Assembly: GCF_031598375.1 (NCBI RefSeq)
Contig: NZ_CP123872.1
Coordinates: 3,096,501 to 3,160,500 of the forward strand
Origin: Temperatibacter marinus
GTDB taxonomy: Bacteria; Pseudomonadota; Alphaproteobacteria; Sphingomonadales; Kordiimonadaceae
DNA length: 64,000 nucleotides
Direction: 5' to 3'
Shown here: in pieces, positions 46,918 through 63,439 of the stretch
Position numbering within the stretch: the first letter of the stretch is position 1
Layout: each line of letters starts with the position of its first letter
Notes under the pieces: model-generated
Seen by the model: the letters and a program-made list of their open reading frames with translations, nothing else
What the model was told of the DNA's origin: nothing
Database searches by the model: none
Program-made: the position numbers and the translations under genes

Positions 46918-47334
46918 CCAGCCTCTGATACCAAAAATTAAATCCATAAATTTCAATATGTTATACAATATCACATTTCGTAGTGGCTCATTGTTCACGT
47001 AAATAACGTAAAATCAAAATCCTCTATTATGCAACAACTAACTTTGGCACCATAAGTGTTAATGGCGGACACAATTGCGAACAAGCTAAATAATTCTTAT
47101 AGCCTTTAAAGGAAATAGACATTTGATGAGTTTGAAGGCATCTACTCAAGCATCAACTTAATTTGAGGGCGCACAGTGATTTTGAAGAAAAGGAAAAAGA
47201 TAAAATAAAAAAACATGAAACAAAGGCGCTTGCAACACTGCAGTCAACTTGCTTAATATTAACTAACAATCAAGATAATGCACTCTCTTAGTTTAAACGC
47301 CATATGGTAACAATTTATCTGATAACGGACAAAT
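46918..47334. other. Gene-free stretch at the left island border
   Basis: AT-rich sequence without a supported gene. It contains only the left inverted repeat of the NADAR cassette (47038-47067) and no clear promoter. Confidence 0.5.
47038..47067 (+). repeat. Left 30-bp inverted repeat of the NADAR cassette
   Basis: Begins CTAACTTTGGCACC and is complementary over 30 bases, with one mismatch, to 47908-47937. The two copies enclose about 840 bases with a single gene. No transposase is inside. Confidence 0.85.
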
Positions 47335-47898: not shown

Positions 47899-47907
47899 GT
47901 TATAATT

Positions 47908-47937
47908 CGCCATTAACACCTATGGTGCCAAAGTTAG
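47908..47937 (-). repeat. Right 30-bp inverted repeat of the NADAR cassette
   Basis: Reverse complement of 47038-47067 with one mismatch (CCATAGG versus CCATAAG). It begins ten bases after the NADAR stop codon. Confidence 0.85.
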
Positions 47938-48020
47938 CTAGCATTGTTAGAGTGATCTTACTGGGATTAAATATAGCACATCCTTAAAGTTAATTGCTCA
48001 TTGATTATCATTTTAAAGTG

Positions 48021-49424
48021 CTATCCTCTCCTATTTTTATGCATATCTTTGTCATACTTTGCAATAGCAGGGATAAGCTTTGGGCTAAGGTTTTTTCTAT
48101 GTAAGTAATCGTATAATCCCTTAGCTGTGTCTAAAAAATATTTATAATTATGTTGGAATTTTTCTGTGGTTAAGCCTCGAGCTTTAACATCGAATGAAAA
48201 TGCTAAAATAACATGTTCTGTTGCTTTTCCAGCAAGAAGATAATATTCCCTCTTCTGTTGGAATTTTAGTTTCCCATACCAATTATTATCTTTTTTTATT
48301 AAAGATAGTGTATATGGATCATGCCATTCAGTTCCCCATGACTTTTCTTTTGTCCCTGAATAAAATTCTTGAGGGCCTTTCTGTTTTATTCTTTCAATTT
48401 CATTTCTGATAACACCTCCTGTCTCAATTGAGGTTTTTACATCGCCTATAGCAAGGAGCATGTCAGTGATTTTATAGTATTGGCCATCTTTACTAGTAGA
48501 GCCTATTTCGTATTTATAATTTGGTAATCCTCCCTCTTTAGCGTGTTTCACGAACTTGATTTTCCAATCCTTAGGGAAACCTAAATATTCATGCATGCTA
48601 TTAGAGTTTATCATTGCAATTGCTATGTCCATAGCCTTATCAGTATGTATTCCTTCAGGGTAATGATCATCAAATTCTTTGTAAGCTTTAAAAGTATTGA
48701 GCTTCTTCGCAATCATCCAAGTAATATCTTGCGATAAATTATAAAAGGGGCTCTTCTTTTTATTCTCATACAATGAGGCTATATTATGAGGGTCATTTGA
48801 TTGAGCTGCTTTTAGTAAATTATTTGCTTCAATAATGTCTTTGATGGCTTGACCGTATTGAGTTGAAGCCTGATCAATATTAAGTATAATATGGTTGCGA
48901 GATGCTTCAGTAAGGAGTTCCTCAATCAGTTCGATTGTCTGGTTAAATCCCATGACATTATTTGAATATTTTTCATTCAATGATTCCAATGTTTTATTGG
49001 CAACATCTTTTGAATAATCAATTGCTGTTGATAGAGTATCTTCAATAGTTAACTCACTAATTTCTTTATCTATTTCTTTAAAGTGGAGATAAGAATTTAC
49101 TGAGTTTGATATATTGGTGTCATAGTTCTCATATATGTCGGGCCCAGTTTTAAATTTGTTCTCTAATTTTAAAAGAGAGTTTTCTAGATTTGATAAAAGT
49201 ACAATTGTAGCTTTTGAGTTTAAAGAATGATCGAGACGATCGTATGTCTTTACTTGCTTCTTGATTTTGGAAGTTAAAATCAGACTGTTGCTTATATCCT
49301 GAGAAAGATTGTACTTAAATTCAGATAGCTTATCAATTCTGAGGTTATTGTAATAGAAATATGATCCATATCCTAGTGTAACAATAACTAAAAACATTAC
49401 GATTTTAGATAGTAAATTATTCAT
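48021..49424 (-). CDS. Membrane-anchored hypothetical protein
   Basis: A 467-aa protein with an N-terminal membrane anchor (IVMFLVIVTLGYGSYFYY) and a long, mainly helical, coiled-coil-prone body (residues 35-230), then a mixed C-terminal domain (KDNNWYGKLKFQQKREYYLLAGKATEHVILAF). AGGGGAG precedes the ATG by six bases. No family is recognised. The composition is much more AT-rich than the chromosome genes. It sits in the decayed island, so a defence or surface role is possible but unsupported. Confidence 0.65.
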   Translation of the reverse strand: MNNLLSKIVMFLVIVTLGYGSYFYYNNLRIDKLSEFKYNLSQDISNSLILTSKIKKQVKTYDRLDHSLNSKATIVLLSNLENSLLKLENKFKTGPDIYENYDTNISNSVNSYLHFKEIDKEISELTIEDTLSTAIDYSKDVANKTLESLNEKYSNNVMGFNQTIELIEELLTEASRNHIILNIDQASTQYGQAIKDIIEANNLLKAAQSNDPHNIASLYENKKKSPFYNLSQDITWMIAKKLNTFKAYKEFDDHYPEGIHTDKAMDIAIAMINSNSMHEYLGFPKDWKIKFVKHAKEGGLPNYKYEIGSTSKDGQYYKITDMLLAIGDVKTSIETGGVIRNEIERIKQKGPQEFYSGTKEKSWGTEWHDPYTLSLIKKDNNWYGKLKFQQKREYYLLAGKATEHVILAFSFDVKARGLTTEKFQHNYKYFLDTAKGLYDYLHRKNLSPKLIPAIAKYDKDMHKNRRG

Positions 49425-49705
49425 AAATTCTCCCCTTAAAAATAACTTAGCTAATTACTTACTTATTTGTCAATTTCCCGGCCTTAAAGGCCTTTAAAAT
49501 TATTAATAATTGAAAAACACTTTTTATTAATGCTTTGTAAGTTGAGTAATAATATTAAGCACGTGATTTGAATTTTAACTTGGCTAGTTATTAAAATTAA
49601 TTTGAATTATTTATAACTTTACATAAGTCTTATCAGCTAATAACTTTCTACTCTGAATTAAGTGAAACTGTATTAAAAATAAATTTTATCCCCTAAGGAA
49701 TTACA
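49425..49705. other. Divergent AT-rich promoter spacer
   Basis: A 281-base, very AT-rich spacer between two divergent orphan genes. One short hairpin (GGCCTT-A-AAGGCC, 49488-49500) is visible. No gene is seen. Confidence 0.45.
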
Positions 49706-50176
49706 ATGAATAAACCTGGTATTATTAATATGTTAGTTGGGCTATTTTGGGGAGTTGCAACTTTGATTGGTGTTTTTGTTTATGAGTATTTACTTTATAT
49801 TTTAGCCATATTAGCACCTCTGCAGTTTCTATACGGTTTGGGGCAGTTTATTCACTATAAATTTCTTATGGACCCAGATGAAGCCGCGCAATATGACTTT
49901 TCGCTTGATACAAGTCATGTAAAAACTGGAAAATTTTGGTTGATTATTGCTTGCTGTATTGGAGTGTTTACAGGTTTTGACATTTATACTCGTATTGATA
50001 TGGAATTTGTTGCAGTCCCTACATTGTTATTAGCAACATATTGTTTTTTCTGTTTATATGAAACTTATGATTTTGAAGGCTGGAAAAATAGGGCTTATTA
50101 TACAAAAATGTTGTCTTTAGCTTGTTTAGGTGGAGCCATTTATAATGGCATTCGTGCATATAATATAATATTTTAA
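49706..50176 (+). CDS. Small polytopic membrane protein
   Basis: A 156-aa protein with four hydrophobic segments (IINMLVGLFWGVATLIGVFV; YLLYILAILAPLQFLYGL; FWLIIACCIGVFTGF; VPTLLLATYCFFCLY). AAGGA precedes the ATG by seven bases. No family recognised. It is divergent from the anchored 467-aa protein. Confidence 0.6.
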   Translation: MNKPGIINMLVGLFWGVATLIGVFVYEYLLYILAILAPLQFLYGLGQFIHYKFLMDPDEAAQYDFSLDTSHVKTGKFWLIIACCIGVFTGFDIYTRIDMEFVAVPTLLLATYCFFCLYETYDFEGWKNRAYYTKMLSLACLGGAIYNGIRAYNIIF

Positions 50177-50290
50177 TTATTAAAATTTAACGGATGACTA
50201 TCTCAGAAACTCTGTCACTCGAAACCTTTTAATATATGAATATAAACAGTAGCTTATTCTTTTAGCTAAGCATTGTTCTTTAGTTTTCAA

Positions 50291-50377
50291 TTATAGACGT
50301 AAATCAAAATAGCTTGTATTAATGAGAAAATTCTTACGGAGATAGTAAACCGCACCACGGCGGATTAAGTTCTGCAC
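50291..50377 (-). pseudogene. N-terminal remnant of a tyrosine integrase
   Basis: On the minus strand, 28 codons from a GTG at 50377 read VQNLIRRGAVYYLRKNF and end FDLRL then a stop. This aligns with the start of the intact integrase (LNYLYRRNAVYYFRK ... IELRLSLK). The distance and orientation to attachment repeat B copy those of the intact integrase to repeat C. The rest of the gene is gone, so this is the stump of the integrase of island 1. Confidence 0.75.
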
Positions 50378-50462
50378 TTTTGGCAGCTTCAAACTCCTGC
50401 GAGGGAGCTTTTAGCTGTCATTTTAAGGTTAAACGGAACGCCCTAAAGGACCACTAAAAGAA

Positions 50463-50521
50463 AAACCCTCGATCTCTATTGAAATCAAGGGCTTATCTTA
50501 AAATTGGTAGCGGAGGAGGGA
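50463..50521 (-). repeat. Attachment-site repeat B: internal tRNA-Met 3' end plus terminator
   Basis: Positions 50500-50521 match 22 bases of the tRNA-Met 3' end (core GGTAGCGGAGGAGGGA). The adjoining hairpin (minus strand CCCTTGATT...GAGGG, T run) is nearly identical to that of repeat A. It divides the island into two units. Confidence 0.85.
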
Positions 50522-50589
50522 AGCGAAACCAATACCCTCTCAGTCTGAAACCAACAGTAATCCTAGTTCTTCAAAGCATATTGTTAACA

Positions 50590-50617
50590 TGCTATTGGCA
50601 CAGCTGTGCCAATAGCA
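50590..50617. repeat. Perfect 28-bp palindrome near the left end of island 2
   Basis: Half-site TGCTATTGGCACAG followed directly by its exact complement. Each arm contains TTGGCACA, the same octamer that occurs twice at the integrase end (63264-63271 and 63277-63284). Likely a recombinase arm or directionality-factor binding site. Confidence 0.7.
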
Positions 50618-50741
50618 CTATTGAATCATTGTAAATGATTTTTGTCAACTGAATAGAACTGAACTATTAAAGAGAGTTATATGGCGATTTCATCCGACAA
50701 AAACCAATAAACGAAAGGCATAGATATACTCTTGTAAGCGG

Positions 50742-51251
50742 TTATTTAAATAGCCGCTTAATGCCAGCAATTACAGACGACCCTAAGCCACCCTCGTCGA
50801 ATACTTGTTGTGATTTTATTTTTGTAATTCGTTCTTGCTCAGAATAATAGAAATAATCATTATTGGTAAAAGACTCTTCGGTACCGAAAGCCTTTTTCAG
50901 CATCTTTTGTTCTTCTTCTTTTGTAACCTTGAGCGCACTGGATAGATAGTGGGATAAAAACATTGGTTTTGCTTCTATCTGCAGAAAAATTTGACGTAAG
51001 AGTTCTTCACCTTCAGGAGATAGTTGTTTTGCACCCACCATTAACATGCGGTTAAAGTCTACGAATGAAACATTAGCGTCTAATTCTTGAATTTCGCTTT
51101 CAAATTCCTCTTTAGTGATATGTAGATGGTTCATAAAATCATATTCATGCAAATTTGAGAGAATAAAAGCTGCTTTAGCGATTAATTGACCTTCCGGTAA
51201 ATCTTTAGTGGCGCCTAGCTTAATTGCTTTCAGAACGGTAATTTTAGACAT
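50742..51251 (-). CDS. Hypothetical protein downstream of the mob genes
   Basis: A 169-aa soluble, helical, acidic/basic-alternating protein without signal or known motif. GAGGA lies about nine bases before the ATG. It follows the MobC-like gene by 20 bases, so it belongs to the mobilization operon and may be an accessory transfer or stability protein. Confidence 0.65.
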   Translation of the reverse strand: MSKITVLKAIKLGATKDLPEGQLIAKAAFILSNLHEYDFMNHLHITKEEFESEIQELDANVSFVDFNRMLMVGAKQLSPEGEELLRQIFLQIEAKPMFLSHYLSSALKVTKEEEQKMLKKAFGTEESFTNNDYFYYSEQERITKIKSQQVFDEGGLGSSVIAGIKRLFK

Positions 51252-51271
51252 AGTTATTTGTCCTCTTCTTT

Positions 51272-52033
51272 CTAGTGTGCGTTTCTGACAGAATTTTCTT
51301 GTTTGTCAGCACGTGCATTTTCTGCATATTCACGAAATTTCGTCATAGTGATGAAGGTGAACGGTTTTCTGTGTTCATCTCTGATATTAATAAGGCGTTG
51401 ATTGTGTTTAACACTCTCAATACCCATCATGATTTGTTGAAGGCGCCGGTTAAATGCATCATCAGGTGTGATGTATAGTACCTTGTGGTATACGCCCTTA
51501 TTCAGCTTTAATATGTGCTGATATGTCAATTGCTGATACCTAATGTGCGACTTGGTGGACCTTTCACACTCGATGCAGATAATCTGACCTTTCTTATCTG
51601 TAACAAGCGCATCTGGCTTTTTCTGTCCCTTGATTTTCATCGTGTTTTCATAATGAAAATCTGCCCAACCAAATGTATCGCAATGGATTTGAACTTCACG
51701 CAACATGACTTCATGGTCATACGTGCCAAAATGAAACTTTGCTGGCTTAAATAGCTTATAGGCAGATAAGTCTTCGTCGGGTTGTAGAGCCATTCCCAGC
51801 CCGTGAGGGCTCAATGACCAGATGGTTTTGCGTCTGCCATCATCTAAGCTAAATTGATGACGTCTGATCAATCCTTGTTTCTCCATGTTACTCAAAAGAC
51901 GGTGGGCCATTTGGCGGGAGTTAAACCCACACAAGAGCTGAATTAAATCCTGTGAAGACCAGCCACTTACTTTCAAGTGGCAAAGAACCATCATAATATA
52001 AATTTCATGCTTTTTATTGTTAGAGATAGTCAT
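51272..52033 (-). CDS. MobC-like relaxase / replication-relaxation family protein (CloDF13 type)
   Basis: A 253-aa protein with an N-terminal winged-helix segment (LLCGFNSRQMAHRLLSNMEKQGLIRRH) of the replication-relaxation family. A C-terminal nuclease-like core reads KPDALVTDKKGQIICIECERS, an Asp then Glu-x-Glu arrangement as proposed for the non-HUH MOB-C relaxases of CloDF13 type. Its ATG is three bases past the coupling-protein gene, reproducing the mobB-mobC order of CloDF13. It would nick the transfer origin. The assignment rests on size, motif and gene order. Confidence 0.7.
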   Translation of the reverse strand: MTISNNKKHEIYIMMVLCHLKVSGWSSQDLIQLLCGFNSRQMAHRLLSNMEKQGLIRRHQFSLDDGRRKTIWSLSPHGLGMALQPDEDLSAYKLFKPAKFHFGTYDHEVMLREVQIHCDTFGWADFHYENTMKIKGQKKPDALVTDKKGQIICIECERSTKSHIRYQQLTYQHILKLNKGVYHKVLYITPDDAFNRRLQQIMMGIESVKHNQRLINIRDEHRKPFTFITMTKFREYAENARADKQENSVRNAH

Positions 52034-52036
52034 GGT

Positions 52037-53800
52037 CTATCCTTTCGGCAGTAAATCATCATCAAAAGACGAGAAAGGCATTAGCTCGTCATTAATACTG
52101 CGTGGTGGTGTATGATTTGTAACGATTGGCTTATAGGGAACTGGATCAATCAAGATAGGCGCTGTAATCCCAAGCTGAGGAATGCCTCCTGCTCCCATAA
52201 TAAGGCAGCAACGCTTAGGTAAGTTCATAAGAACATTAGTTGAAAAGTATGGCACTTGAGTTTGAGCTAATGTTCTTCCTCTTTTATGAAGTTCAGAATT
52301 AGCTTCATTGGTCTCAGTTTGTTGAATTTCATTATCCACCAAAATTGTTCCAGTTAGATCAGAGAACATCTTTGCAGTCTTTGGATTCTGACAACGATAA
52401 GACAGTTTAAGTCCAGTATTGTCTGTTACCGTCTGATAAACTACCTTTGGCTCCAGACCTGCTACCGCAATTTCAATATCACCTAAACTTTGATGACAAA
52501 GCCAATACGAGGCATTACTTGACCTTAGGGCCCCAAGACTATCACAAATTACACGCGATAATGAATATTTAAATTCATCTCCCACGATAGTAACATGGCT
52601 GGATTTATCGTCTCTATTTTCTACGATTTGAGGAATACGAGCAAAGATTAAACGCTGAAGCATTTTCACTGCATCATCCCGCATGGCACCCTTAAAATAC
52701 CAAACTCCCTGTGAAGAGAGAATTTCCTCTAAATCATTCGGCGCATCAGTCTGCACGGCAGGAATCAGTGCAATTTCTTTGATTTTTTTATAAACATCAC
52801 CCAACTCATCATTAATATCTTCTGCTAAATCCAAAAGTTTTGGAAAGCTGGGGTTCTCATCAATCATATAACATAGTGTATATAATGGATCGCGCTCATT
52901 AATACGATAGTGATCACTATCTTTATCGCTTAAGGACAAACCGAACGCCGAGATTAAAAGCTCATACAAATCTTCAGGCGTTATATTATGTAATGGATTA
53001 AACTGAGGTGGTTGATCTCTTTTTAAGTTAATTTCACGATAAGGAACACCTGCAATTTTTGCCGAATTTTCTAGTAATGCAGGCAAATAGACATCGTGCT
53101 TAGGGTCAATTGTGACAACAACATGCCTGCCCGAAAGGACTCTCTGGCAACAAGCAATAGCACATACCATGCTTTTACCTGCAGATGGTGCACCAACAAG
53201 CTGAACATTCGTTTCACGGTAGTAGTCTTCATCCAAAAAAATTGGTTTATGGTTTTCATCTAAACACAGAAAAACCTTGTTAAGTTTTAAAGCCTGCTGA
53301 AAGTATTTTGTGGGGTCATATTTAATGACTTCAGGAAATAATTTTGCCAAATCTCTGACATCTGTAAGCCCCTTCTTGTCGACACTCTTAAGTGCCCGTT
53401 TGGTCTTTCTATTCATGTATGGCTCAAGATATCGTGCAATCAAATGACGCAATACGAAGCCTGTTGGTAGACCTACCACTAATCCTGCAAATCCATACAT
53501 ATAAACCTGTTCAAAGTGATGTTTAAGCTGAAGGATGAGATCATATCTGGTGATAAATGCTGCAATTAAGCCTGTTCCAACAAAGAATGTAGCAGTATAG
53601 AAGATAACAATTAAACCACCCGATAGTAGTCGTGTAACAGATGGTAAGAATGATTTATCACCTTTGCATACGACAGATGTGCGATGAAGTGCAGGTAAAA
53701 GGCTGGCAATAAGAAAGGCATAGGTGAACAACCAATCTTTTGAGTGAGCGAGTGTGATGATAGAATATTGTACGAGGTCATGTGACGATAGCGAAAACAT
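52037..53800 (-). CDS. Type IV coupling protein (TraD/MobB-like ATPase)
   Basis: A 587-aa membrane ATPase. The N-terminus has membrane segments (LFTYAFLIASLLPAL; GLIVIFYTATFFVGTGLIAAF; MYGFAGLVVGLPTGFVL). The ATPase domain has Walker A QLVGAPSAGKSMVCAIA and a Walker B-like VTIVGDEF, with TIDPKHD between them. Such proteins dock the relaxase-DNA complex at a secretion channel. The start at 53800 has GGAGAA seven bases upstream; the frame is open to 53848. It precedes the MobC-like gene, and a large structured region lies just upstream. Confidence 0.82.
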   Translation of the reverse strand: MFSLSSHDLVQYSIITLAHSKDWLFTYAFLIASLLPALHRTSVVCKGDKSFLPSVTRLLSGGLIVIFYTATFFVGTGLIAAFITRYDLILQLKHHFEQVYMYGFAGLVVGLPTGFVLRHLIARYLEPYMNRKTKRALKSVDKKGLTDVRDLAKLFPEVIKYDPTKYFQQALKLNKVFLCLDENHKPIFLDEDYYRETNVQLVGAPSAGKSMVCAIACCQRVLSGRHVVVTIDPKHDVYLPALLENSAKIAGVPYREINLKRDQPPQFNPLHNITPEDLYELLISAFGLSLSDKDSDHYRINERDPLYTLCYMIDENPSFPKLLDLAEDINDELGDVYKKIKEIALIPAVQTDAPNDLEEILSSQGVWYFKGAMRDDAVKMLQRLIFARIPQIVENRDDKSSHVTIVGDEFKYSLSRVICDSLGALRSSNASYWLCHQSLGDIEIAVAGLEPKVVYQTVTDNTGLKLSYRCQNPKTAKMFSDLTGTILVDNEIQQTETNEANSELHKRGRTLAQTQVPYFSTNVLMNLPKRCCLIMGAGGIPQLGITAPILIDPVPYKPIVTNHTPPRSINDELMPFSSFDDDLLPKG

Positions 53801-54488
53801 AAAGTTCTCCATTCTGAATATCGAAATTGGTATTGAAGGGGATGCCAAGCGCGTAGCGTGCGGAAGCCACTAGGCTGAAGTAACGGCAAGGATCATTTAC
53901 ACTTCAGCAGATGAAATACTGGTGAATGATCTTTGATCTCGTCTGCCGACCGTCAGAAATAAAAGACGGCATAAACGAGATCGCAGCAAATCAAGACCCC
54001 AGTCTTGAATTGACTGCGACCAAAGAGGTAGTGAAGGTTCCCCAGAACCGGAAAACAATGTGTACACCCAAGTGTAGGCATGGTGGCTGCCTCGCCGCCT
54101 GTCGGACTGCAAAGCGGTCCCGACCATCCGAGAGTTGGTATTGCGTACAGCAAGCCCTTGGGCCCTTGAGTGAGGACGGTCAACAGCAGATAATAAATCT
54201 GCCGTTCCTCGCACAAGAGAGTGCTCAGTGCTCGGATGGTCGGGACTGATCACCTCACTGAGGTAAGGACCAGACAGGCGGCAATTTGCAGGGGTAATAT
54301 TGAACGGTACAGCATCGACTAGATGCCCGTTTAAGCCTGCAATACTAACGGTTTCAAGATATAAGGAGTGGCGTCCAGTAAACGAAGAAATATTCTTGAA
54401 ACCCACATTCTGTCGTTGACATACCTTGTTGACGAGGATTGTTGACACCGCTTTACAAGCAGTGTCAACAACAGATGATGCCTTAAGC
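53801..54488. other. Large non-coding region of nested perfect hairpins: candidate oriT or ornate RNA
   Basis: At least ten stems are visible. GATCATT/AATGATC closes 53891-53931. GATCTCGT/ACGAGATC (53935-53982) has an inner CCGTC/GACGG. TCGCAG/CTGCGA (53981-54019) encloses TCAAGAC-CCCA-GTCTTGA. Small hairpins lie at 54036-54049, 54063-54076 and 54252-54264. GCCGCCTGTC/GACAGGCGGC (54094-54282) encloses a perfect 16-bp pair, 54117-54132 with 54231-54246. TTGCAGG/CCTGCAA closes 54286-54342, GGTTTCAAGA/TCTTGAAACC closes 54350-54403, and TTGTTGACAC/GTGTCAACAA closes 54439-54471. It is richer in GC than the genes around it. It lies directly upstream of the coupling protein. Confidence 0.7.
54415..54453 (+). 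repeat. Three 13-bp iterons (GTTGAC-N5-TT)
   Basis: GTTGAC recurs at 54415, 54428 and 54441 with exact 13-base period, each unit ending in TT. The third overlaps the hairpin at 54439-54471. Iterons of this kind bind replication or relaxosome proteins. Confidence 0.6.
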
Positions 54489-54950
54489 CTAGGCATTCCA
54501 CTTACTCATGAATGTGTGTTTTTGACTTTCAGTAAAGTCGAAAATAACAGACAATGACTTTTCAACAAAGTCTTTCGTTGGTTGGATTTGAGCAAATGCA
54601 TTATTGGTACATTTGATGAATGCAGCCGAGAATTGAAGGTTCTTCACATCAAAGCCATTAAAGCTCTCGCCACTCATAGGCGTAAAGATAAATCGGCGAA
54701 TTTGATCTTCAATATGATCCAAGGTATCCACGCCGTAGCTATTTGCAACAGCATGCAAAGCAATAATGAAGTCTGTTGAAGGTGAGTATTCTGGGCTGTC
54801 TTTACCTTCATTGATCATGAGACAAACCATTTTCTTAACGAAAAGGTTTAACTCATCGTCAGACATCAGGCGGTATTGCAAACAAATGCCAGACGACAAT
54901 AAATGAAAAATGGATTTTGGACATAATTGTCCTGTATAGTGAAAACTCAT
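54489..54950 (-). CDS. Hypothetical island protein
   Basis: A 153-aa soluble protein with no recognised family. AGGAG lies eight bases before the ATG, which supports expression. The middle section (LFVKKMVCLMINEGKDSPEYSPSTDFIIALHAVANSYG) is helical. It sits just upstream of the structured region and could be a DNA-binding or processing partner, but nothing in the sequence proves this. Confidence 0.65.
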   Translation of the reverse strand: MSFHYTGQLCPKSIFHLLSSGICLQYRLMSDDELNLFVKKMVCLMINEGKDSPEYSPSTDFIIALHAVANSYGVDTLDHIEDQIRRFIFTPMSGESFNGFDVKNLQFSAAFIKCTNNAFAQIQPTKDFVEKSLSVIFDFTESQKHTFMSKWNA

Positions 54951-55092
54951 CAGTTTTCTCCTCTAAATAAATTCAAACAAAACGATACACTTCACCTGCA
55001 ACACAGATGTTGACCGTATTTTTCATTTGTCAGTGAAGAGACTTTAAGGTAAGCTTCAGGTCTGAATCGGAGCTGACCTTGTGTCTCTTCAT

Positions 55093-55129
55093 TAAAAAGC
55101 GTCATAGCCCTTGGGCATTGGCGCTTTTT
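55093..55129 (-). terminator. Bidirectional intrinsic terminator
   Basis: AAAAAGCG pairs with CGCTTTTT around an inner GCCC-TT-GGGC stem, with T runs on both strands. It lies downstream of the four-gene operon. Confidence 0.65.
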
Positions 55130-55231
55130 TACTTTCCCACCCATTACGTATGCAATGAGCATCGAAGCTGACAATCTAGATATTAACAAAAAACTGCTAC
55201 CACCGCAACCCCGAATAAATATTTTTTCTTT

Positions 55232-55249
55232 TGTAACCAATAGGTTACA
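55232..55249. promoter_or_regulatory. Operator-like inverted repeat TGTAACC-AATA-GGTTACA
   Basis: A perfect 7-bp inverted repeat with a 4-base spacer. It is followed by a T6 run ten bases... further on the plus strand, so an alternative reading is a weak terminator. It shares the TGTAACC half-site with the LacI operator at 28.77 kb, but with a different spacing. Confidence 0.4.
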
Positions 55250-55421
55250 CTATGTTTTTTAATAAAATAGTATAATTATCATTTCTTCATACATTTCTAT
55301 TTCTACTCAAATATTAAATAACACATCGACAACAAATTGATTATCAAGTCAGCCTGATAAATTTGAAAATGAATTTTCACCGAAGACGGACATAGCTGAC
55401 TGTTTAACTGGCTTGGGGAGT

Positions 55422-56645
55422 TTAAGCTTTACCTGTATGAACAATTTTAGGAAACACACCTCTTTCAAGAGCGTGATTAGCGATATCAATTAAGTTATCA
55501 AAAAAATGATCTGAGCTAGTCGAATTTTTTGTTAATAGATGTAATTGAGGGTAGTCCGTCAAAACCACAGGAAGTTCCAAATCAACCATCAAATTTATAA
55601 CTGGGTCACTACATTCTTTATACTCGTCATCAAACAATTCCTTAACAATAACTAGTCCAATAAGCTGTTTATCCAAATTCATGATTGAAATTGAGTTAGT
55701 TGCAGTTTTTATTGATATTCCATTGTTGTTTTTTGCATGGGTCATTGCTCCACACAATTGATCTATTGCTTTCGATATATGCCTTTTTATGGTTTTTCTT
55801 TTCCTATCTATCTTTCTGGTAAGAGACTTAGGCGTATTAGGACTATCTTTGGCTTGAATGAATAAAACTTCATGCTCGGTTACAACTAATATATCCGTTA
55901 ATTCCTTATCTGTATCTATCCTGTATGGATTTACATAAATCTCAGATTTATCGAATATTCGTCTCATGAGGAGTGCTATATCACGCTCTTGCATATCCCC
56001 AGGATTTTTATCTCGATCGAGACTGGTCATTGCAATCGACTGCATATCATCATTAAAGCCGTCGAACTCTTCGCGGACATCTATAATAAGCGTATCATCA
56101 GGATAAATTCTTTTTTCGAACTTGATAGTAAAAGCATTAGCATCATCCGCAACATCTCTGACAGAAAATCTTCGTTGTAATCGTTTTAATATGCCTACAA
56201 CATCACCTTTTTCTGAGTTATAAAACTTTGCCTGAGTAAGAAGATTGCCAAATATTTCATGCTTTTCATTGATTGCTGAAATTCCCATTATTTCTCGGTC
56301 AAGTTCATCAAAAAAGTATATATCAAACTCGGACTGATTAAGGGCATGACAAATATTTAGCATTAACTCGTCATCATCAAAAATTGGTGTCGTTAGTGTC
56401 AGAGGTTCGTCATGGTCATCAAAGAACGCAGTGATCAAACCTAAACTGTATAAATCATTCTCATAATCCTTTAAAAAATATACTTTAAATTCATTCTGTG
56501 TACGGGCTGTTAAAATCATTTCCTTTGTTGTTTTTATTACAAAAAACCATTTGCCAGTCTCATTATTTTTTAAAGGTATATACCCACCATTAAATGGTTG
56601 AATGTATTTGATAATTTCTGGGTATAAAATAGAGATCATTGTCAT
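55422..56645 (-). CDS. PD-(D/E)XK-like nuclease-fold protein, last gene of the defence operon
   Basis: A 407-aa protein. Near residue 250 a restriction-nuclease-like core is visible: TDILVVTEHEVLFIQAKDSP, with D251 and Q264-A-K266, where Q replaces the usual Glu as in some PD-(D/E)XK enzymes, and E220 as a possible upstream acid. The N-terminal 200 residues are unassigned. The gene starts six bases after the HEPN gene stop, so the two are co-transcribed. A nuclease effector role is inferred from this motif and the operon. Confidence 0.6.
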   Translation of the reverse strand: MTMISILYPEIIKYIQPFNGGYIPLKNNETGKWFFVIKTTKEMILTARTQNEFKVYFLKDYENDLYSLGLITAFFDDHDEPLTLTTPIFDDDELMLNICHALNQSEFDIYFFDELDREIMGISAINEKHEIFGNLLTQAKFYNSEKGDVVGILKRLQRRFSVRDVADDANAFTIKFEKRIYPDDTLIIDVREEFDGFNDDMQSIAMTSLDRDKNPGDMQERDIALLMRRIFDKSEIYVNPYRIDTDKELTDILVVTEHEVLFIQAKDSPNTPKSLTRKIDRKRKTIKRHISKAIDQLCGAMTHAKNNNGISIKTATNSISIMNLDKQLIGLVIVKELFDDEYKECSDPVINLMVDLELPVVLTDYPQLHLLTKNSTSSDHFFDNLIDIANHALERGVFPKIVHTGKA

Positions 56646-56651
56646 GTGTCT

Positions 56652-57245
56652 TTAAGTAGAGATGTTTAATACGCTAGCTAGATGTGAAAAAACGGCTGTT
56701 GTGAAATACTCAGAAAGCTCAATAGCAAGATACGCATCATCTTTAGATACTGGATTACAAGAATGTACTGCAGAATTTCTAATTTTTTTCTGTCTTTCCC
56801 ATTCTTGTTTCAAGGTTCGCCCTGTATCACCAAACTCTTCTTCACTTAGGTTTACGCCATATTTTTCAAGAATTTTGAAAAGCAAATTCAAGAAATTCTT
56901 GTTTTGCATAACAATCGGAGCAATGATCTCATCAACACTTTCATCATGAATAAATCCCGCAACTACGGGTTCTAATAATACTTTTTTGATGAAATATTCC
57001 GTTGCCGCAAATGCAAAAACAAAAGAAGCAGTACTATCTACTTTTAAGATAGCTTTTGCTTTTTCTAAGTATTCTAGAGCTGGCGCAGCTAACTTCTTAT
57101 TAGCTCTATAGTATGAAGATAATCGTTCATCCTGAAAATCAGCTATGATTTCATCTCGAGCACCTTCGATTATTTCTTCTACCATTTCATCATAGGCCGC
57201 TTGTTCAGCATACCAATAATCTCGATCTTCATCTGGGTGTGCCAT
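56652..57245 (-). CDS. HEPN-like protein with an R-x4-H motif
   Basis: A 197-aa helical protein. IRNSAVHSCN places R156 and H161 in the R-x4-H motif of HEPN ribonucleases, late in an all-helical C-terminal half that has the HEPN/apea-like look (SFVFAFAATEYFIKKVLLEPVV). The start overlaps the helicase gene by 17 bases and has a GGGGGA site. HEPN proteins cut RNA in many defence and toxin systems. Toxicity here is not proven. Confidence 0.65.
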   Translation of the reverse strand: MAHPDEDRDYWYAEQAAYDEMVEEIIEGARDEIIADFQDERLSSYYRANKKLAAPALEYLEKAKAILKVDSTASFVFAFAATEYFIKKVLLEPVVAGFIHDESVDEIIAPIVMQNKNFLNLLFKILEKYGVNLSEEEFGDTGRTLKQEWERQKKIRNSAVHSCNPVSKDDAYLAIELSEYFTTAVFSHLASVLNIST

Positions 57246-59154
57246 TTACATTCCCCCAATCCAGTTTCTTTAATCCTAATGTCGATAATTTAGTCTCGTC
57301 AGCGCCTTCAGGAACCGCCCAAATGAGTAACTTTCTTGGCCTTGAGCTCGCTACGTAGGCAAATCGAGCTGGCTCTTGAGAACTATCCTCCAACCACTTT
57401 TCCCAATGGCCGTCCTTGCCCTTTGTTGGTGATGATACGAGCATTACTGCATCTAATGTATCCCCTTTGACTGAATGGATTGTTCTAATAGGAATATTCG
57501 TGGCGTTTCGCTTTACATATTTAATCGTCTGAATAACATTTTTACTGGCATCACCACTTGGCGAGCTAAAAACAAGCTTGCTAGGTATGCTGAACTGATA
57601 TGATCTATCATTATATTCTAACAAATAATGACTGTTAGTGACTGCATTATGAAGAGTTACTTTTAGCTTTTTTGCCCATGCTGACCATTGCAGTTCTAGG
57701 TTTTTAACCTCATTGTCATCACATACCTTTGTTAAAATAGAAGCAATAAATGTACGCCAATTAGAAGCTGTAGAAACAATTGATGGTAAATGGAATTTGG
57801 AGGGGCTAGCTGAATTATCATTAAAATATTTATTGGCTAAGAATTTTCCCATCAATTTTAGCGCATCAATTAAACTCTCCTCCTCACCTTCACTCCAAAT
57901 TTTAATAGCTAAAGCGACTTCATGTGAGGGCTTTAGATTGGCATTTGATGCAGGGCGCATTCTAGAGATCATCGAATGACCTCGTGTGATTATAGCTGAA
58001 GTTTTAAATAGACCTGAATTATCACGTTCTAGATATTGTTCAAAACTTTCAGATAGATCACTAATGTTCCTTTTGTCATATAATACATAAAAGCAATCTA
58101 AAGCAGGGATTTTGGCATTGCCTTTTATTGGAGTACTTAAATCAATAACTTTATTACAGAAATCGACAACACCTTGATGGCTTCTAAAGTTATTTGTTAA
58201 CTTCAATACTTTCATCTTATTTTCATCAGCAAAATTTTGGACTAAACTGGGATCAACTTTTTTAAAGTTATAGATTGCTTGATCTAGGTCCCCTACCAAA
58301 TTGATAGAAATTCCTTTGTCATGTAAAGTTTGCAATATAATTAATTGCCCAGCAGATAGGTCTTGGGCTTCATCAACAAAAATACAAGGAAAACGTTTTG
58401 CTAAGAAATCACATAATTCATCTTGCTTATCGAGCAACTCTTTACACATAAGCTCTATATCTTGATAATTAGCAAAGCCTGCTTCCCAAAATTTCTTTTT
58501 TGTATTTAACAATTCAGTATTTTGCCATATTTCTAAAGTCATACTGTTTCTAGCGGAATCTACAGTGCGTTTTCCACTTGCAAATTCCCATTGGCTACTT
58601 GAAACATCATAATGGTACTGATTAGCGAATGGTGTACCAGTCCCATTATATTGATACTTAGTAGAGTAACTATTAAGAAACCCCGCTTCTGATGATGGAT
58701 CAATTAATCTGAACGACCTATCCAGATCATTTTGATCCTCTCCATTATATTTAGTGAGATGATGCAGGAAAGGGTGAGCAATATAAGAATGTAACCAGCT
58801 ATCGAAGGTGCCAACAAAATGTGGGTAAACGATACTGCTCAACCCTGTAAATTCAGAAATTCGATCTGTGATGACATCTGCTGCATTGTTAGTAAATGAT
58901 AGAATTGCAATGCCGCCATTTATCTCCCACCTAGAAATTTCATAAGCAGCTTTTATTGCGACTACTTCTGTTTTTCCACTTCCTGGGCAAGCCTTAAGAA
59001 ATGTAGATTCATCTATTGATGAAAAAATATAGTCTAATTGTTCCTCAGTTTTTTCATCAATACGGCATGCCCCGTAAGATTGGCATTTATTACAGCTTTT
59101 ATGTTTAGTTCCTGAAGGACATAATGCATTAAGTAATGATGATTTATTAGTCAT
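57229..59154 (-). CDS. UvrD-like superfamily 1 helicase (GajB-like)
   Basis: A 641-aa SF1 helicase: Walker A LKACPGSGKTEVVA (residues 53-66), GGIAILSFTNNAADVI, Walker B CIFVDEAQDLSAGQL, VGDLDQAIYNFK, LTNNFRSHQGVVDFCN and IRTIHSVKGDTLDAVMLV near the end. The first 30 residues hold four cysteines (C12, C21, C24, C30) in a metal-site-like pattern. The ATG at 59154 has GGAGG eight bases upstream and overlaps the stop of the OLD nuclease gene by eight bases. The pairing and order match GajA-GajB of Gabija, although both proteins here are larger than typical members. Confidence 0.85.
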   Translation of the reverse strand: MTNKSSLLNALCPSGTKHKSCNKCQSYGACRIDEKTEEQLDYIFSSIDESTFLKACPGSGKTEVVAIKAAYEISRWEINGGIAILSFTNNAADVITDRISEFTGLSSIVYPHFVGTFDSWLHSYIAHPFLHHLTKYNGEDQNDLDRSFRLIDPSSEAGFLNSYSTKYQYNGTGTPFANQYHYDVSSSQWEFASGKRTVDSARNSMTLEIWQNTELLNTKKKFWEAGFANYQDIELMCKELLDKQDELCDFLAKRFPCIFVDEAQDLSAGQLIILQTLHDKGISINLVGDLDQAIYNFKKVDPSLVQNFADENKMKVLKLTNNFRSHQGVVDFCNKVIDLSTPIKGNAKIPALDCFYVLYDKRNISDLSESFEQYLERDNSGLFKTSAIITRGHSMISRMRPASNANLKPSHEVALAIKIWSEGEEESLIDALKLMGKFLANKYFNDNSASPSKFHLPSIVSTASNWRTFIASILTKVCDDNEVKNLELQWSAWAKKLKVTLHNAVTNSHYLLEYNDRSYQFSIPSKLVFSSPSGDASKNVIQTIKYVKRNATNIPIRTIHSVKGDTLDAVMLVSSPTKGKDGHWEKWLEDSSQEPARFAYVASSRPRKLLIWAVPEGADETKLSTLGLKKLDWGNVNGTPR

Positions 59155-61102
59155 CAACACTGCCTCCACATGCCCAAATGACAGCTTTATTTATGTTGTC
59201 AGGAATCGTGAAATTACTATCTTCTTGTAATACTTCAGATAATAACTGCGCATAATACCCTTTCCCCATATTATTATCTTCAATTCTTTTTAGAATGATA
59301 TTTGCATTACTCCCCTTTATCTGAGGCTTTTCATCATTCCATTCTTTCTCTGCTATACTTTTAATCTCTTTGTAAACTGTTCCACGATTATGCCAATTAT
59401 CCTGTAAGACTTTTGCCATGACCTGAAGGTTGTTACCTTCCATAGCCAAGTCATATTCTAGTGTCTTGTATGCTCCTGTATATAATCGACAATAATCTGA
59501 TGAGTTAATCTTCGTTAAAAGGTTTAAAACAGGATTTTTACCGTCATTGTGATCAGGATCGATTGGAGTAGCGGGTATCGTTTTTTCATCCTTTTCGTCT
59601 TTCAACTTTTCAGGGTCTTTATCGGTAATCCCTGCGCATCTAATTTCTATGTTTTGGCAATCTTTGTCTTGCTTGCCAAAATTACAGAAAAGACGCATGA
59701 AATGCTTAAAATATATACCATTCATATTGACGATACTAACACCTGCCTTTTCTAAACTGTCTGGCAACAAATCTTTTTTGTCTTTGCCTTCATTATAATT
59801 TTTAAGGATGCTTTTTGCTAATTGTGGTACTAAAAAAGCCTCTGCGATGCCTTCGACCAAAATAACACCCTTGGCAAATAGTAAGGTTGATTTTGTCGTA
59901 TCCAGCCACCTGCTTAAAAACAAATTACTTGCAGGTATTAAAACGTCTTCTTTACCATCAATTTCATGCTTAATATCTTTATCAATACCTGTACATATTA
60001 TTGGCGTTGCATTGATGCTACTTGTGTTGCCTGAGGAAATATGGATAAGGCTCTCAATTGACGCTGAAGATGCCAACACAGGTGAGTGTGACGTAACTAT
60101 TACTTGTATAGGAGATGTTTCATTTTTTGAAATCTCTTCAAGATATTTTAAAAGTCTTATTTGAAGCTGTGGATGAAGATGGGCTTCAGGCTCTTCGACC
60201 AACAATACTTTTAATCGTTCATCCTCTTCACCTGAGTCTATCAATTCTGCCAATACGGTTGCTAAATATAATAAGTTATTATGACCTAAGCTATTCTCAT
60301 TTAACGAGCGATAATAATCTTTGTTTGTTCCATCACTTATGAAGTCTGGGAAGAAAAACAACCGTAAACTTTCCGCAATTCTATTAAAGCCTACTTCTGA
60401 AAATCCAATATGAGTATCTTGACCAAATACTTCACCAACAGCATCTGTTAGCTTACTCTTGATTAAGTCATTCATCTTTTTTATTGGAAGATCATCGCTT
60501 GTTGCGATGTCATGGTTGAATGATTGAACCTTCTTTTCTAATGAATGTATCTCACCTTTATCTTTAAGTTCTTTAAGGGCTTTTGCTTCTATATTTTTAA
60601 GTAATTTAGCCAGTCGAGAAGCTTTTCCTTCTTTAAGTTTTGCTTCAGCATCTCGAAGAGGCGGTAAATAAATGCAATTGAACTTTTCGAACAATTCCCA
60701 TTCAAAGGCCGAAGATTTTGAACTGCCACCCCAAACGTGTCTTTTAAAGCGACCGTATTTTTCTTTATTTTCTACTTTTAAATTTAATGTGGCGTGCTGG
60801 TCTATATCATACCAAGGTAAGAAAGTAACTTTGTCATCCTTAGTTAATCCTGCAAAGCTTGCTTGAATAACAAAACTTTCAGAGGCTTGAGCGCTTACTT
60901 CGAAGGGTTTGTGAAAATCACTTTCTGATACAGGAGTATAACCAAATTCATCTTCCCTCAAAAGCAATCGTATGGCATCAATTATTGAGGTTTTTCCTGA
61001 AGCATTTTCCCCAACTATAACATTAAGCCCCTGCCTTAAATGGATAGCTGTTTTCTGCCCTATTCCTTTGTAATTTTCGATAGATATATTTGAAATGTAC
61101 AT
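59147..61102 (-). CDS. OLD-family ATP-dependent endonuclease with TOPRIM domain (GajA-like)
   Basis: A 651-aa protein. The ABC-type ATPase comes first: YISNISIENYKGI, Walker A VGENASGKTS (residues 30-39), the signature region ENSLGHNNLLYLATVLAEL and Walker B VLLVEEPEAHLHPQLQ. A TOPRIM nuclease domain follows: AKGVILVEGIAEAFLVPQLA with its Glu and GITDKDPEK with Asp-x-Asp. This is the OLD/GajA layout, in which ATP or nucleotide levels control DNA cleavage. It is the first gene of a four-gene operon. No strong promoter is visible in the 120 bases before it. Confidence 0.87.
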   Translation of the reverse strand: MYISNISIENYKGIGQKTAIHLRQGLNVIVGENASGKTSIIDAIRLLLREDEFGYTPVSESDFHKPFEVSAQASESFVIQASFAGLTKDDKVTFLPWYDIDQHATLNLKVENKEKYGRFKRHVWGGSSKSSAFEWELFEKFNCIYLPPLRDAEAKLKEGKASRLAKLLKNIEAKALKELKDKGEIHSLEKKVQSFNHDIATSDDLPIKKMNDLIKSKLTDAVGEVFGQDTHIGFSEVGFNRIAESLRLFFFPDFISDGTNKDYYRSLNENSLGHNNLLYLATVLAELIDSGEEDERLKVLLVEEPEAHLHPQLQIRLLKYLEEISKNETSPIQVIVTSHSPVLASSASIESLIHISSGNTSSINATPIICTGIDKDIKHEIDGKEDVLIPASNLFLSRWLDTTKSTLLFAKGVILVEGIAEAFLVPQLAKSILKNYNEGKDKKDLLPDSLEKAGVSIVNMNGIYFKHFMRLFCNFGKQDKDCQNIEIRCAGITDKDPEKLKDEKDEKTIPATPIDPDHNDGKNPVLNLLTKINSSDYCRLYTGAYKTLEYDLAMEGNNLQVMAKVLQDNWHNRGTVYKEIKSIAEKEWNDEKPQIKGSNANIILKRIEDNNMGKGYYAQLLSEVLQEDSNFTIPDNINKAVIWACGGSVDD

Positions 61103-61223
61103 TTATTTTCCATTACTTTTAGGTGTAAAAGTTAATAATTGCATATCAAATCGAAACTCTCCACAAAATTGTCACCAATACAACCACTATACAGGAAAAT
61201 TAGTATTTTTCAGATACAGAAAC

Positions 61224-63221
61224 CTACATGCACAATAGGTCTAGATCATGCTTTTTCATATACCGTTCAAAGTCAGCAGCATTCGCATCCATCATTTCCA
61301 GATGTGCGCGTGACCAAAAATCACGATTTGGTAATGGATGAAAGTCATTGTCCCCTAAACTCTCTGATCGGCCAATCATATTGGCGTTAGAAATAAGTTT
61401 GATCGGCACAAGCTTCAAATGGCTGGTCACAATAGGGATCACAGCGTTGATGTCGTTTAGAACAGGCATATAGCCCCCAGCATTATATACAACATCACCT
61501 AGCGTTGTTTTATTGTCATTGCGGCCCAAGAATTCTGCCACATGTCGACTCTCAATATGTCTACCGTCAATTTTCACCCTCCCTACTAGAGTTTCCACTG
61601 AGTGACGAAATCCTCCTAGCGTCATTTCAGGATACTTCATATCTCCAAATAACTTTGGTCTCATCTTCGTCCAAATAAGCCTATTAAAAACATCCCCTGT
61701 TGCTGTAGTTCTACTGGTAGGAATAAGCTCTGGGAAAAGAGCTCTTCTTCCAGCCATATGCGTTGCCAGCACAAATTCTTTAAACCCTAATCTCACTAGC
61801 TCTGGATGAACTGGAATAACCCTTAGGCTTGTTTTCTTTTTAATATTTCCCATGAGATTAGAGCGTATCACCACACACAAAGTTCCTGAGGTTTCCAGAA
61901 AGTCACTCGTCATTAAACCACAAGCTTCACTTGGCCTCATACCAGAATACCAAAGCAGTAGAGGCACCCAATATGCTGCGTCTTGATAGATGGCCCGCCC
62001 TGCTTCAAATCTAGGACTAACTTTTTTAGGGCCGTCAATCTTCTCACCGCGCGATCCTGTATAGATCGTAGTACTGAAAAGCTTAGTTGCATCACTTACC
62101 AAGATGTATTCTGTTCTTTCTTTTGTTGATCGATAATCACGCTTCGTAGTTTTGAGAAGGTCCCATTCAATTGTCGGAACAATGTACCCTTTCTTTCTAT
62201 CGTCTGTCAGGAGCATTTTTAAAGCAGTAATTGATCCATTGATCTTGTTAATCGATAGCCCGTCGCCTTTTAAGGCACTAGGCATTTGTCCTACAACAAA
62301 TCCTTTCTTTTTTTCTTTGTTTTCTAGGCATTTAAGGAAATTGGACAATTTTTCCTGTGTTACATCAGCTACTGTGTCATCAGGATAAATTTCAGTATAT
62401 CTAACGATTGCAGTCTTATAATCCTTACCGCCCTTATTACCCCATTGACCTCCGCTCACCTGATCTTCTTCAAATGTCAGGAAACGCTCAAGCAACTTTA
62501 TTCTTGGTGCTATATTTTTCTGATCTGGTAATTGTTCGAGTTCAGGGCGGGATTCTGTACTAAGTTGTGTTTGAATGGAATATTTCTCAACCTTATGAGG
62601 CTTATCAATTTCCTCACCTAAAACATTTAAATTAGCTTGCAATACTGCTTCTGCTATTGCTTCGCATACCAATTTCCAAACATCATTACGAACACTAGAA
62701 GTTTTCAACAGCTCAAACTGATCAAGAATTTGATCACGGTATCTTGCTGCGACGCCCCTTGTGTCAAGCTGGGAGGCAATCATTTGAGAAGACAATTCCC
62801 CACGTAGCTCCGAACTGTTGATTTCAGGGTTTCCTTCATATTTAAATAGGCTAGGTAAAGCGCTGTGAATAGTCCGCCATTGATTATTCTGTGAGATATA
62901 CTCCTGTAGTGTGGCTTCATTGTCGTCAGACATTTTCAGTTCAGCTTGAAACTGGTTCAACAGTCTATCGCGCTCAAAAGAAACGACATCTTTAAAGGCT
63001 TCTATTCTTTGCTCTGATGTTAAAAAATTTCCACGCCCTTTTAACTCGACCACACTTTTTTCCTCAATAAACACTACTAAATAATCACTTATACTTTTAG
63101 CTAGTGTCTTGCAGTACGTTTTTAAAGATAGGCGCAGTTCTATTTTTTCACCGCCGCATAAAATGACTTTGCGAAAGTAGTAAACCGCGTTGCGGCGATA
63201 TAGGTAATTTAATGATGGCAT
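61224..63221 (-). CDS. Large tyrosine site-specific integrase
   Basis: A 665-aa integrase, longer than typical phage integrases (about 400 aa). The N-terminus (SLNYLYRRNAVYYFRKVI) matches the DUF6538-type start common in alphaproteobacterial integrases. The catalytic domain has the first arginine in WYSGMRPSEACGL, LGGFRHSVETLVGR with the second, and the nucleophile in GDVVYNAGGY. The usual HxxR histidine is replaced by Gly. GGAGGG sits six bases before the ATG at 63221; the frame extends to 63311 without support. It faces away from the tRNA it uses as target. Confidence 0.85.
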   Translation of the reverse strand: MPSLNYLYRRNAVYYFRKVILCGGEKIELRLSLKTYCKTLAKSISDYLVVFIEEKSVVELKGRGNFLTSEQRIEAFKDVVSFERDRLLNQFQAELKMSDDNEATLQEYISQNNQWRTIHSALPSLFKYEGNPEINSSELRGELSSQMIASQLDTRGVAARYRDQILDQFELLKTSSVRNDVWKLVCEAIAEAVLQANLNVLGEEIDKPHKVEKYSIQTQLSTESRPELEQLPDQKNIAPRIKLLERFLTFEEDQVSGGQWGNKGGKDYKTAIVRYTEIYPDDTVADVTQEKLSNFLKCLENKEKKKGFVVGQMPSALKGDGLSINKINGSITALKMLLTDDRKKGYIVPTIEWDLLKTTKRDYRSTKERTEYILVSDATKLFSTTIYTGSRGEKIDGPKKVSPRFEAGRAIYQDAAYWVPLLLWYSGMRPSEACGLMTSDFLETSGTLCVVIRSNLMGNIKKKTSLRVIPVHPELVRLGFKEFVLATHMAGRRALFPELIPTSRTTATGDVFNRLIWTKMRPKLFGDMKYPEMTLGGFRHSVETLVGRVKIDGRHIESRHVAEFLGRNDNKTTLGDVVYNAGGYMPVLNDINAVIPIVTSHLKLVPIKLISNANMIGRSESLGDNDFHPLPNRDFWSRAHLEMMDANAADFERYMKKHDLDLLCM

Positions 63222-63263
63222 TGATACCCTCCAAATTGAGGAACTGCCTTCTAGATGTGCATT

Positions 63264-63284
63264 TTGGCACAGGTTATTGGCACA
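63264..63284 (+). repeat. Paired TTGGCACA octamers next to the integrase (arm-type sites)
   Basis: TTGGCACA at 63264-63271 and 63277-63284, 13 bases apart, between the integrase start and repeat C. The same octamer builds the palindrome at the other island end. Confidence 0.55.
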
Positions 63285-63308
63285 AAATTCCGACCAAACC
63301 GATGCGCG

Positions 63309-63344
63309 CAAAAAAAAGAAGCCCCCGACTTACTTTGAAGTCAA
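63309..63344 (-). terminator. Terminator of the tRNA-Met gene
   Basis: On the minus strand AAGCCCTTGACTT pairs with AAGTCGGGGGCTT (two G-T pairs) and is followed by a run of T residues. It was delivered with the element; counterparts remain at repeats A and B. Confidence 0.8.
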
Positions 63345-63357
63345 GGGCTTAACTTTT

Positions 63358-63383
63358 AAAATTGGTAGCGGAGGAGGGATTTG
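63358..63383 (-). repeat. Attachment-site repeat C (attR, within tRNA-Met)
   Basis: The 26 bases shared with repeat A and 22 with repeat B. They cover the CCA end, the acceptor-stem 3' strand and part of the T arm of tRNA-Met. Confidence 0.85.
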
Positions 63384-63439
63384 AACCCCCGGCACATGGA
63401 TTATGATTCCACTGCTCTAACCAACTGAGCTACTCCGCC
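63363..63439 (-). tRNA. tRNA-Met (CAT), elongator
   Basis: A 77-nt cloverleaf with encoded CCA. Acceptor GGCGGAG/CTCCGCT (one G-T pair), D arm GCTC-AGTTGGTTA-GAGC, anticodon arm GTGGA-ATCATAA-TCCAT with anticodon CAT, and T arm GGGGG-TTCAAAT-CCCTC. The first-pair and stem sequences match elongator tRNA-Met rather than initiator (no three G-C pairs in the anticodon stem) or tRNA-Ile2. It is the integration target of the islands. Confidence 0.95.

Follow-up and report, generated by a model that had tools for sequence, protein, structure and literature searches.

Gabija is among the most abundant anti-phage systems and is described as two proteins, GajA and GajB, which form an octameric complex (PMC10681800, sections consulted). 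A preprint proposes that it acts on linear DNA with RecBCD kept off (PMC12407980, sections consulted). HEPN domains are reported to be toxins with a tight link to restriction-modification systems (Anantharaman et al. 2013; PMC3710099, sections consulted). Here we analyse a 64,000-nucleotide stretch of the Temperatibacter marinus genome (hereafter the window; contig NZ_CP123872.1, positions 3,096,501 to 3,160,500 of the forward strand), in which a gajA-gajB pair is followed by two further genes, called gene 3 and gene 4. The reading that we favour, at a probability of roughly 0.68, is that a Gabija pair and two probably separate defence genes are stacked in one transcription unit and carried as cargo by a mobilisable element at tRNA-Met.

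A Gabija pair leads a four-gene row

The open reading frame (ORF) list of the window contains four intact ORFs within 55422-61102, all on the minus strand (Table 1). Profile searches strongly support the first two as a genuine Gabija pair. GajA matched the PADLOC model PDLC00091 over residues 1-647 of 651 (E=2.4e-234) and Pfam OLD-like_TOPRIM (E=4e-13, 50.1 bits, cut-off 23.2), with AAA_15 also matched, and GajB, encoded by the UvrD-like gene that lies directly downstream of gajA and overlaps it, matched PDLC00129 (E=1e-191) and Pfam UvrD-helicase (E=1.1e-30). A Walker A motif begins at G31 of GajA, LVEEPEAHLHP at residue 301, and the TOPRIM residues are E417, G454 and D494-x-D496; E417, G454, D494 and D496 are invariant in three aligned GajA sequences (that of the window and its two closest relatives). 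The order of an OLD ATPase-TOPRIM protein and then a UvrD-like protein is that of Bacillus cereus VD045 Gabija, and the TOPRIM residues, assigned here by motif, parallel E379, G409 and D432/D434 of the B. cereus protein (PMC10781630, sections consulted). The two systems differ in that phmmer gives only 30-36 bits between the solved GajA and GajB and the pair in the window, and in that the latter has two extra genes behind it. It would be unsafe to credit GajB with unwinding of DNA: the GajB examined in one study is reported to show no helicase activity in vitro (PMC10681800, sections consulted).

An earlier note on this stretch, made from the sequence without database searches, had proposed the Gabija pair, its type and order, the gene spacing given below, and the motif positions in genes 3 and 4 (R156-x4-H161, and D251 with QAK, here Q264-A-K266); all of these proved correct. 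PADLOC, a defence-system search of the kind that the note had suggested, names GajA and GajB and neither of the other two genes. The note had also called both core proteins larger than typical. This holds against the solved B. cereus proteins (651 and 646 amino acids (aa) against 578 and 494) but not against the PADLOC models, some of which extend to 752 positions (GajA) and 738 (GajB); because of these models the sizes are unremarkable, and we rejected them as a novelty.

The genes are tightly packed. With ATG 59154 as the gajB start, gajA and gajB overlap by 8 bp, and with the GTG start by 23 bp; the ATG, with GGAGG upstream of it, is the likely start. gajB and gene 3 overlap by 17 bp, and 6 bp separate gene 3 from gene 4. 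This spacing points to an apparent single transcript for all four genes. Their G+C fraction is 0.33-0.36 (0.24-0.29 at third codon positions). The element's integrase and transfer genes are higher, at 0.39-0.41, as are the first 40 kb of the window, at 0.44, and the common low value of the four genes fits one co-acquired cassette. Promoter-type sites (24, against a shuffled mean of 30.4) and terminators (5, against 5.2) showed no excess, and nothing about transcription was concluded from them. An inverted repeat that brackets the operon (54924-54941 and 61185-61202; 18 nt, 94%), its left arm within a listed ORF, was considered as a pair of transposon ends and rejected, because by a rough hand estimate such a pair in 24 kb is about what chance would give.

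Relatives of genes 3 and 4 are found mostly apart from Gabija

We favour separate genes because gene 4 occurs mostly without Gabija, because gene-3 relatives do not lie in a Gabija operon in the five of eight records opened, and because the two closest Gabija pairs found lack both genes in the stretches viewed. From the Gabija side, 6 of 385 class genomes and 6 of 398 phylum genomes matched PDLC00091 (threshold E<=1e-80), each count including the window's own. Twelve other loci were read: ten from genomes and two from plasmids, the latter being the two closest of 86 GajA-matching plasmid records. At two of the ten genome loci the contig breaks off within gajB or shortly after it, leaving eight genome and two plasmid loci informative, and at none of these ten did tblastn detect a gene-3 or gene-4 relative behind gajB. 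The ten genome loci are distant (GajA 26-31% identical to that of the window); only the plasmids are close. Plasmid p2014S01-097-1 of Acinetobacter nosocomialis carries the closest pair found (GajA 48%, GajB 35%), plasmid unnamed1 of Cohnella herbarum the other (46% and 36%), and the stretches viewed of both have neither gene 3 nor gene 4. At two loci a different same-strand ORF, without a Pfam or PADLOC match, lies directly behind gajB (L067:4809-6410, 533 aa, 4-bp overlap; L069:5016-6152, 378 aa, 12-bp gap); extra genes behind Gabija therefore occur but vary.

Gene-4 relatives were found on 4 plasmids, on 6 viral contigs and at 43 genome loci, the latter being those confirmed among 104 pattern matches. 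One of the viral contigs (L074) agrees with the genome locus L010 in length and in match coordinates. The 398 phylum genomes hold one relative besides the window's own, and among 98 relatives of the window's genome only its own copy was seen (0 of 97 others). Phage records gave no match to gene 4 or gene 3, and viral contigs searched with single gene-4 or GajA proteins gave none. When the window's GajA and GajB were used as queries, both were found at one gene-4 locus, L048, and 54 gene-4 loci were tested with five further Gabija or UvrD query sources, some of them from L029, L042 and L048. GajA, GajB and gene 4 stand in line on one strand at 1 of these 54 loci, again L048. At three others (L029, L012 and L021) an OLD/GajA-type gene is close to gene 4 in another layout: a Gabija-type pair (E=2e-72 and 2e-57) is convergent with gene 4 in L029, and an Old-type gene is convergent with it in L021. 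L043 has a weak match about 7 kb from gene 4.

The L048 row, from the Burkholderiales metagenome-assembled genome (MAG) NC_groundwater_1606, is like that of the window in that a gene-4 relative follows gajB on the same strand at a distance of 28 bp, a figure that assumes a gene-4 start at 9940, the gene lying in several frames in that assembly. It differs in having no gene-3 relative by tblastn and in its best PADLOC models (PDLC00099 and PDLC00147), and its GajA is only 27% identical to that of the window. In L012, a Sphingomonadales MAG, the row at 10001-14518 starts with gene 4; an R-x4-H protein that matches PDC-S64 comes next, then a PDC-S04 match and a GajA-like gene that is cut by the contig end. 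We note this row as the closest parallel to gene 4, HEPN-like and Gabija-like genes standing together.

The gene-4 tree, built without L050 (whose aligned part contains stops) and without some further gene-4 loci, spans Pseudomonadota, Bacteroidota, Bdellovibrionota, Actinomycetota and Thermodesulfobacteriota. The row closest to the window is that of a Micavibrio MAG (L010, 50%). L048 and L029 are on other branches than the window, and the Gabija contacts of gene 4 therefore look mutually independent. One to four of the Gabija or OLD contacts may be due to chance, because Gabija is common and defence genes cluster; the counts have no proper background rate.

Relatives of gene 3 were found in eight plasmid records, only on Burkholderia plasmids and one Cupriavidus plasmid. 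Five of the eight were opened (four from Burkholderia, one from Cupriavidus). The stretches viewed of the four Burkholderia records have no Gabija gene annotated near the relative, and L006, the only one of the four so searched, was also negative for Gabija by tblastn. The Cupriavidus record has a Gabija pair, confirmed by PADLOC, on the opposite strand at a distance of about 3.4 kb. Thus in none of the five opened records is the gene-3 relative in an operon with gajA and gajB. None of 90 pattern stretches from genome contigs encodes a gene-3 relative, 289 class genomes gave one match, the window's own, and viral contigs searched with the gene-3 query gave none.

Gene 4 is a predicted nuclease with defence genes beside it at some loci

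The assignment of gene 4 to a PD-(D/E)XK-like class, made in the earlier note, is well supported by its predicted model and its conserved site. For gene 4, neither Pfam nor NCBIfam gives a match that passes its cut-off, PADLOC gives none, and PHROG gives one weak, unnamed match (4.7e-6). Alignment of 32 gene-4 sequences, including that of the window, revealed 22 invariant columns, among them E220, D251, Q264 and K266. The active site of PD-(D/E)XK enzymes has the pattern E...D...(D/E/Q)-x-K, and these four residues fit it. In the model (mean predicted local distance difference test score, pLDDT, 87.4), an N-terminal mixed alpha/beta half is followed by a nuclease domain at about residues 195-400. 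VIA-align placed the model closest to 6qnz_A (Z 13.9, 166 residues, 3.2 Å); BspD6I subunits and FokI fill the eight best rows (Z 12.1-13.9), and next come Cdn1 and Can2, both CRISPR ancillary nucleases (Z 8-9), with McrBC (Z 8). Foldseek likewise gave the cleavage domains of N.BspD6I and FokI as best matches (E 8e-4). Viral structures in BFVD gave nothing at E<=0.001, and solved structures searched by sequence gave no match for query A1 or for query A2, the gene 3 protein.

The C-terminal half of gene 4 thus shares the predicted fold of the FokI/N.BspD6I cleavage domain and differs from it in sequence (6-16% identity) and in the third acidic residue, which is replaced by Q264. Unlike the type IIS restriction and nicking enzymes, the four genes of the window include no methylase gene. 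From the model we infer that gene 4 cuts DNA.

Neighbours of gene 4 were taken from a crude longest-ORF caller, in a list without L016, the viral contigs and L083; a tally of 103 neighbours left out eleven near-duplicate neighbourhoods, neighbours below 110 aa and two L048 entries, and PADLOC scans, run one by one, covered chosen neighbours. Besides the Gabija contacts, gene 4 precedes RADAR-like RdrA and RdrB genes by about 0.7 kb in L020 (186-7496), a Desulfobacteraceae MAG, and lies beside a bSEFIR/TIR protein (L002), type I restriction-modification genes (L003), a NERD-UvrD protein (L042) and the PADLOC candidates PDC-S65 (L011), PDC-S33 (L031) and PDC-S31 (L032). In L014 the ORFs read include no defence neighbour. 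Of the 47 named loci, at least 11 have known or candidate defence genes beside gene 4, a count from the chosen neighbours scanned, which has no background rate. With an invariant nuclease site, members in five phyla, no curated family in the libraries searched and such neighbours, the gene-4 family is a fair candidate for a single-gene defence nuclease. If this is true, the family would be a phage-defence nuclease outside PADLOC-DB 2.0.0. The family itself is the most useful lead beyond the earlier note.

On a Pseudomonas putida plasmid (L005:1999-10191), three annotated tyrosine recombinases and an annotated thymidylate synthase gene come before the gene-4 relative; to judge by ORF lengths, this row appears in L033, L035 and L046 too. 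This type of site looks like the cargo slot of a mobile element.

Gene 3 is likely an HEPN protein by its motif

Judged by motif alone, gene 3 is likely an HEPN protein. The motif reads R156-NSAV-H161, and R156, N157, V160 and H161 are invariant between gene 3 and a relative with 29% identity; it is RNALVH in the Burkholderia relatives and RNAIIH in one frame of the Cupriavidus stretch. An R-x4-6-H protein beside a DNA-attacking system resembles the HEPN genes of restriction-modification operons; that survey covers restriction-modification, abortive infection, toxin-antitoxin and CRISPR systems, and the parts consulted do not name Gabija (Anantharaman et al. 2013; PMC3710099). The assignment of gene 3 to HEPN in the earlier note held for the motif, which relatives keep, but the fold and family comparisons are weak. 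Gabija itself was described after the 2013 survey.

Alternatively, gene 3 may be a small helical regulator or structural partner in which R-x4-H is incidental, which would be compatible with any reading of the operon. Gene 3 reached the cut-off for no family in Pfam, PADLOC, NCBIfam or PHROG, the nearest being Pfam DUF4145 (E=0.098, 13.2 bits, below the cut-off of 23.1), and a Burkholderia relative matched no Pfam family; hhalign against eight DUF4145 stretches gave a probability of 12, a weak value. The single-sequence model is all-helical with low confidence (mean pLDDT 64.9), and Foldseek found nothing for it at E<=0.001. In VIA-align, six of 50 rows are titled HEPN, HEPN-MNT or MntA-HpeT, which speaks for HEPN, but their Z values (6.1-7.4) are level with those of designed or unrelated helical bundles; the toxin-antitoxin-type rows 5yep and 7bxo are entries that we take to be HEPN pairs. 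The four residues kept at 29% identity argue against an incidental motif, and we consider a regulator or structural partner possible, although rather unlikely.

Stacked genes or one system

In the stacked reading, GajA and GajB assemble, as the Gabija literature has it, into a large complex that cleaves the DNA of phages, perhaps where host repair has left it unprotected, and the pair in the window would do likewise in this host. Gene 4 would cut or nick DNA by its C-terminal FokI/BspD6I-like domain once its N-terminal half senses a signal. Gene 3, if HEPN, might cut RNA and stop growth as a final measure after the layers directed at DNA have failed; this is the least certain step. Sharing an operon, the genes would be transferred as a set and have their dosage tied, and the four proteins would not have to form one physical complex.

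Several observations weigh against stacking. Translational coupling, which the gene overlaps suggest, can be a sign of functional coupling as well; the order GajA-GajB-gene 4 recurs in L048 with very different Gabija proteins (GajA 27%); and L029, L012 and L021 have OLD-type genes close to gene 4. A preference of gene 4 for OLD-type neighbours is possible, on counts that have no background rate.

These observations bear on an integrated four-component Gabija variant, in which GajAB recognises and cuts phage DNA, gene 4 is a recruited or licensed second DNase and gene 3 is an HEPN suicide fail-safe. The coupled layout and common base composition, the L048 row and the L012 row (which stops at a contig end) speak for it, but none of the ten informative Gabija loci has either gene behind gajB, gene-3 relatives lie outside Gabija operons in the opened records, and gene 4 is mostly without Gabija. 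We hold such a variant to be unlikely, and the same applies to its fullest form, a four-layer system in which GajAB, a FokI-fold sensor-nuclease and an HEPN RNase fail-safe come from one message and act in sequence. Limited literature searches, which do not prove absence, found no description of Gabija tied to an RNA-cutting suicide arm and no named subtype with genes 3 and 4. The single co-regulated system of four activities proposed in the earlier note survives in part: the layout fits one transcript, but the comparative evidence shows no unit. That note had allowed that homologues of the two added genes might never co-occur with OLD/UvrD pairs; a gene-4 relative does co-occur with such a pair in L048, and in none of the five opened records is a gene-3 relative in an operon with gajA and gajB.

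A classical Gabija system next to a gene 3/gene 4 module of HEPN and nuclease, cooperating or checking each other, would fit the 6-bp gap and the R-x4-H proteins that adjoin gene 4 in L049 (29-bp gap), L012 and L037, but it is very doubtful, as these proteins are unlike gene 3 (no tblastn match), Pfam gives nothing at E<=0.01 for those of L049 and L037, R-x4-H often arises by chance, and few neighbours of gene 4 are of this type across most of its loci. The Gabija operon and its two nuclease-type genes offer a ready case for distinguishing stacking for joint transfer from joint action.

The element at tRNA-Met

The mobile island of the earlier note could be narrowed: judged by its repeats and gene content, 50500-63378 is an integrative mobilisable element of about 12.9 kb that lies between 21-bp attachment (att) repeats at tRNA-Met and carries the four genes as cargo. 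The repeat, searched for with up to one mismatch, has three copies in the whole 3.18-Mb genome, all exact (window coordinates 46892, 50500 and 63358). The integrase gene adjoins tRNA-Met. MobC-like and TraD-like genes were the only mobilisation genes seen, the small ORFs, which bear on the question of a relaxase, having been searched in part.

Table 1 Features of the element and its four-gene cargo, in window coordinates.
Feature	Position	Strand	Remarks
gajA (gene 1)	59147-61102	minus	651 aa; OLD-family ATPase and TOPRIM nuclease
gajB (gene 2)	57229-59169	minus	646 aa from GTG, or 641 aa from ATG 59154; UvrD-like superfamily 1 (SF1) helicase-fold protein
gene 3	56652-57245	minus	197 aa; HEPN-type R156-x4-H161 motif; probable RNase
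gene 4	55422-56645	minus	407 aa; predicted C-terminal PD-(D/E)XK nuclease domain, FokI/N.BspD6I type
Tyrosine-recombinase-type integrase	61224-63311	minus	PHROG phrog_1 E=8.7e-10; Pfam Phage_integrase E=1.8e-4, below cut-off
TraD/TraG-like coupling protein	52037-53848	minus	Pfam TraG-D_C 5.7e-5, 23.5 bits against cut-off 22; NCBIfam SXT_TraD 5.6e-15, below cut-off
MobC-like replication-relaxation protein	51272-52033	minus	NCBIfam MobC_subf E=5e-51, 173 bits against cut-off 200; Pfam Replic_Relax 1.5e-5, just above cut-off
att copy	63358-63378	plus	overlaps 3' end of tRNA-Met (tRNA 63363-63439, minus strand)
att copy	50500-50520	plus	other end of the ~12.9-kb element; exact repeat

Between the transfer genes and the Gabija operon, at 53897-54496, ORFs overlap on both strands, and this part is possibly non-coding or decayed. 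Next to the Gabija element, in tandem, is a second segment of about 3.6 kb (46892-50520) that has an att copy of its own and contains a 467-aa ORF and a 156-aa ORF. Within it, at 47038-47937, inverted repeats of 30 nt (97% complementary, 840 nt apart) surround a 187-aa ORF (47335-47898), an arrangement that looks like a small insertion sequence.

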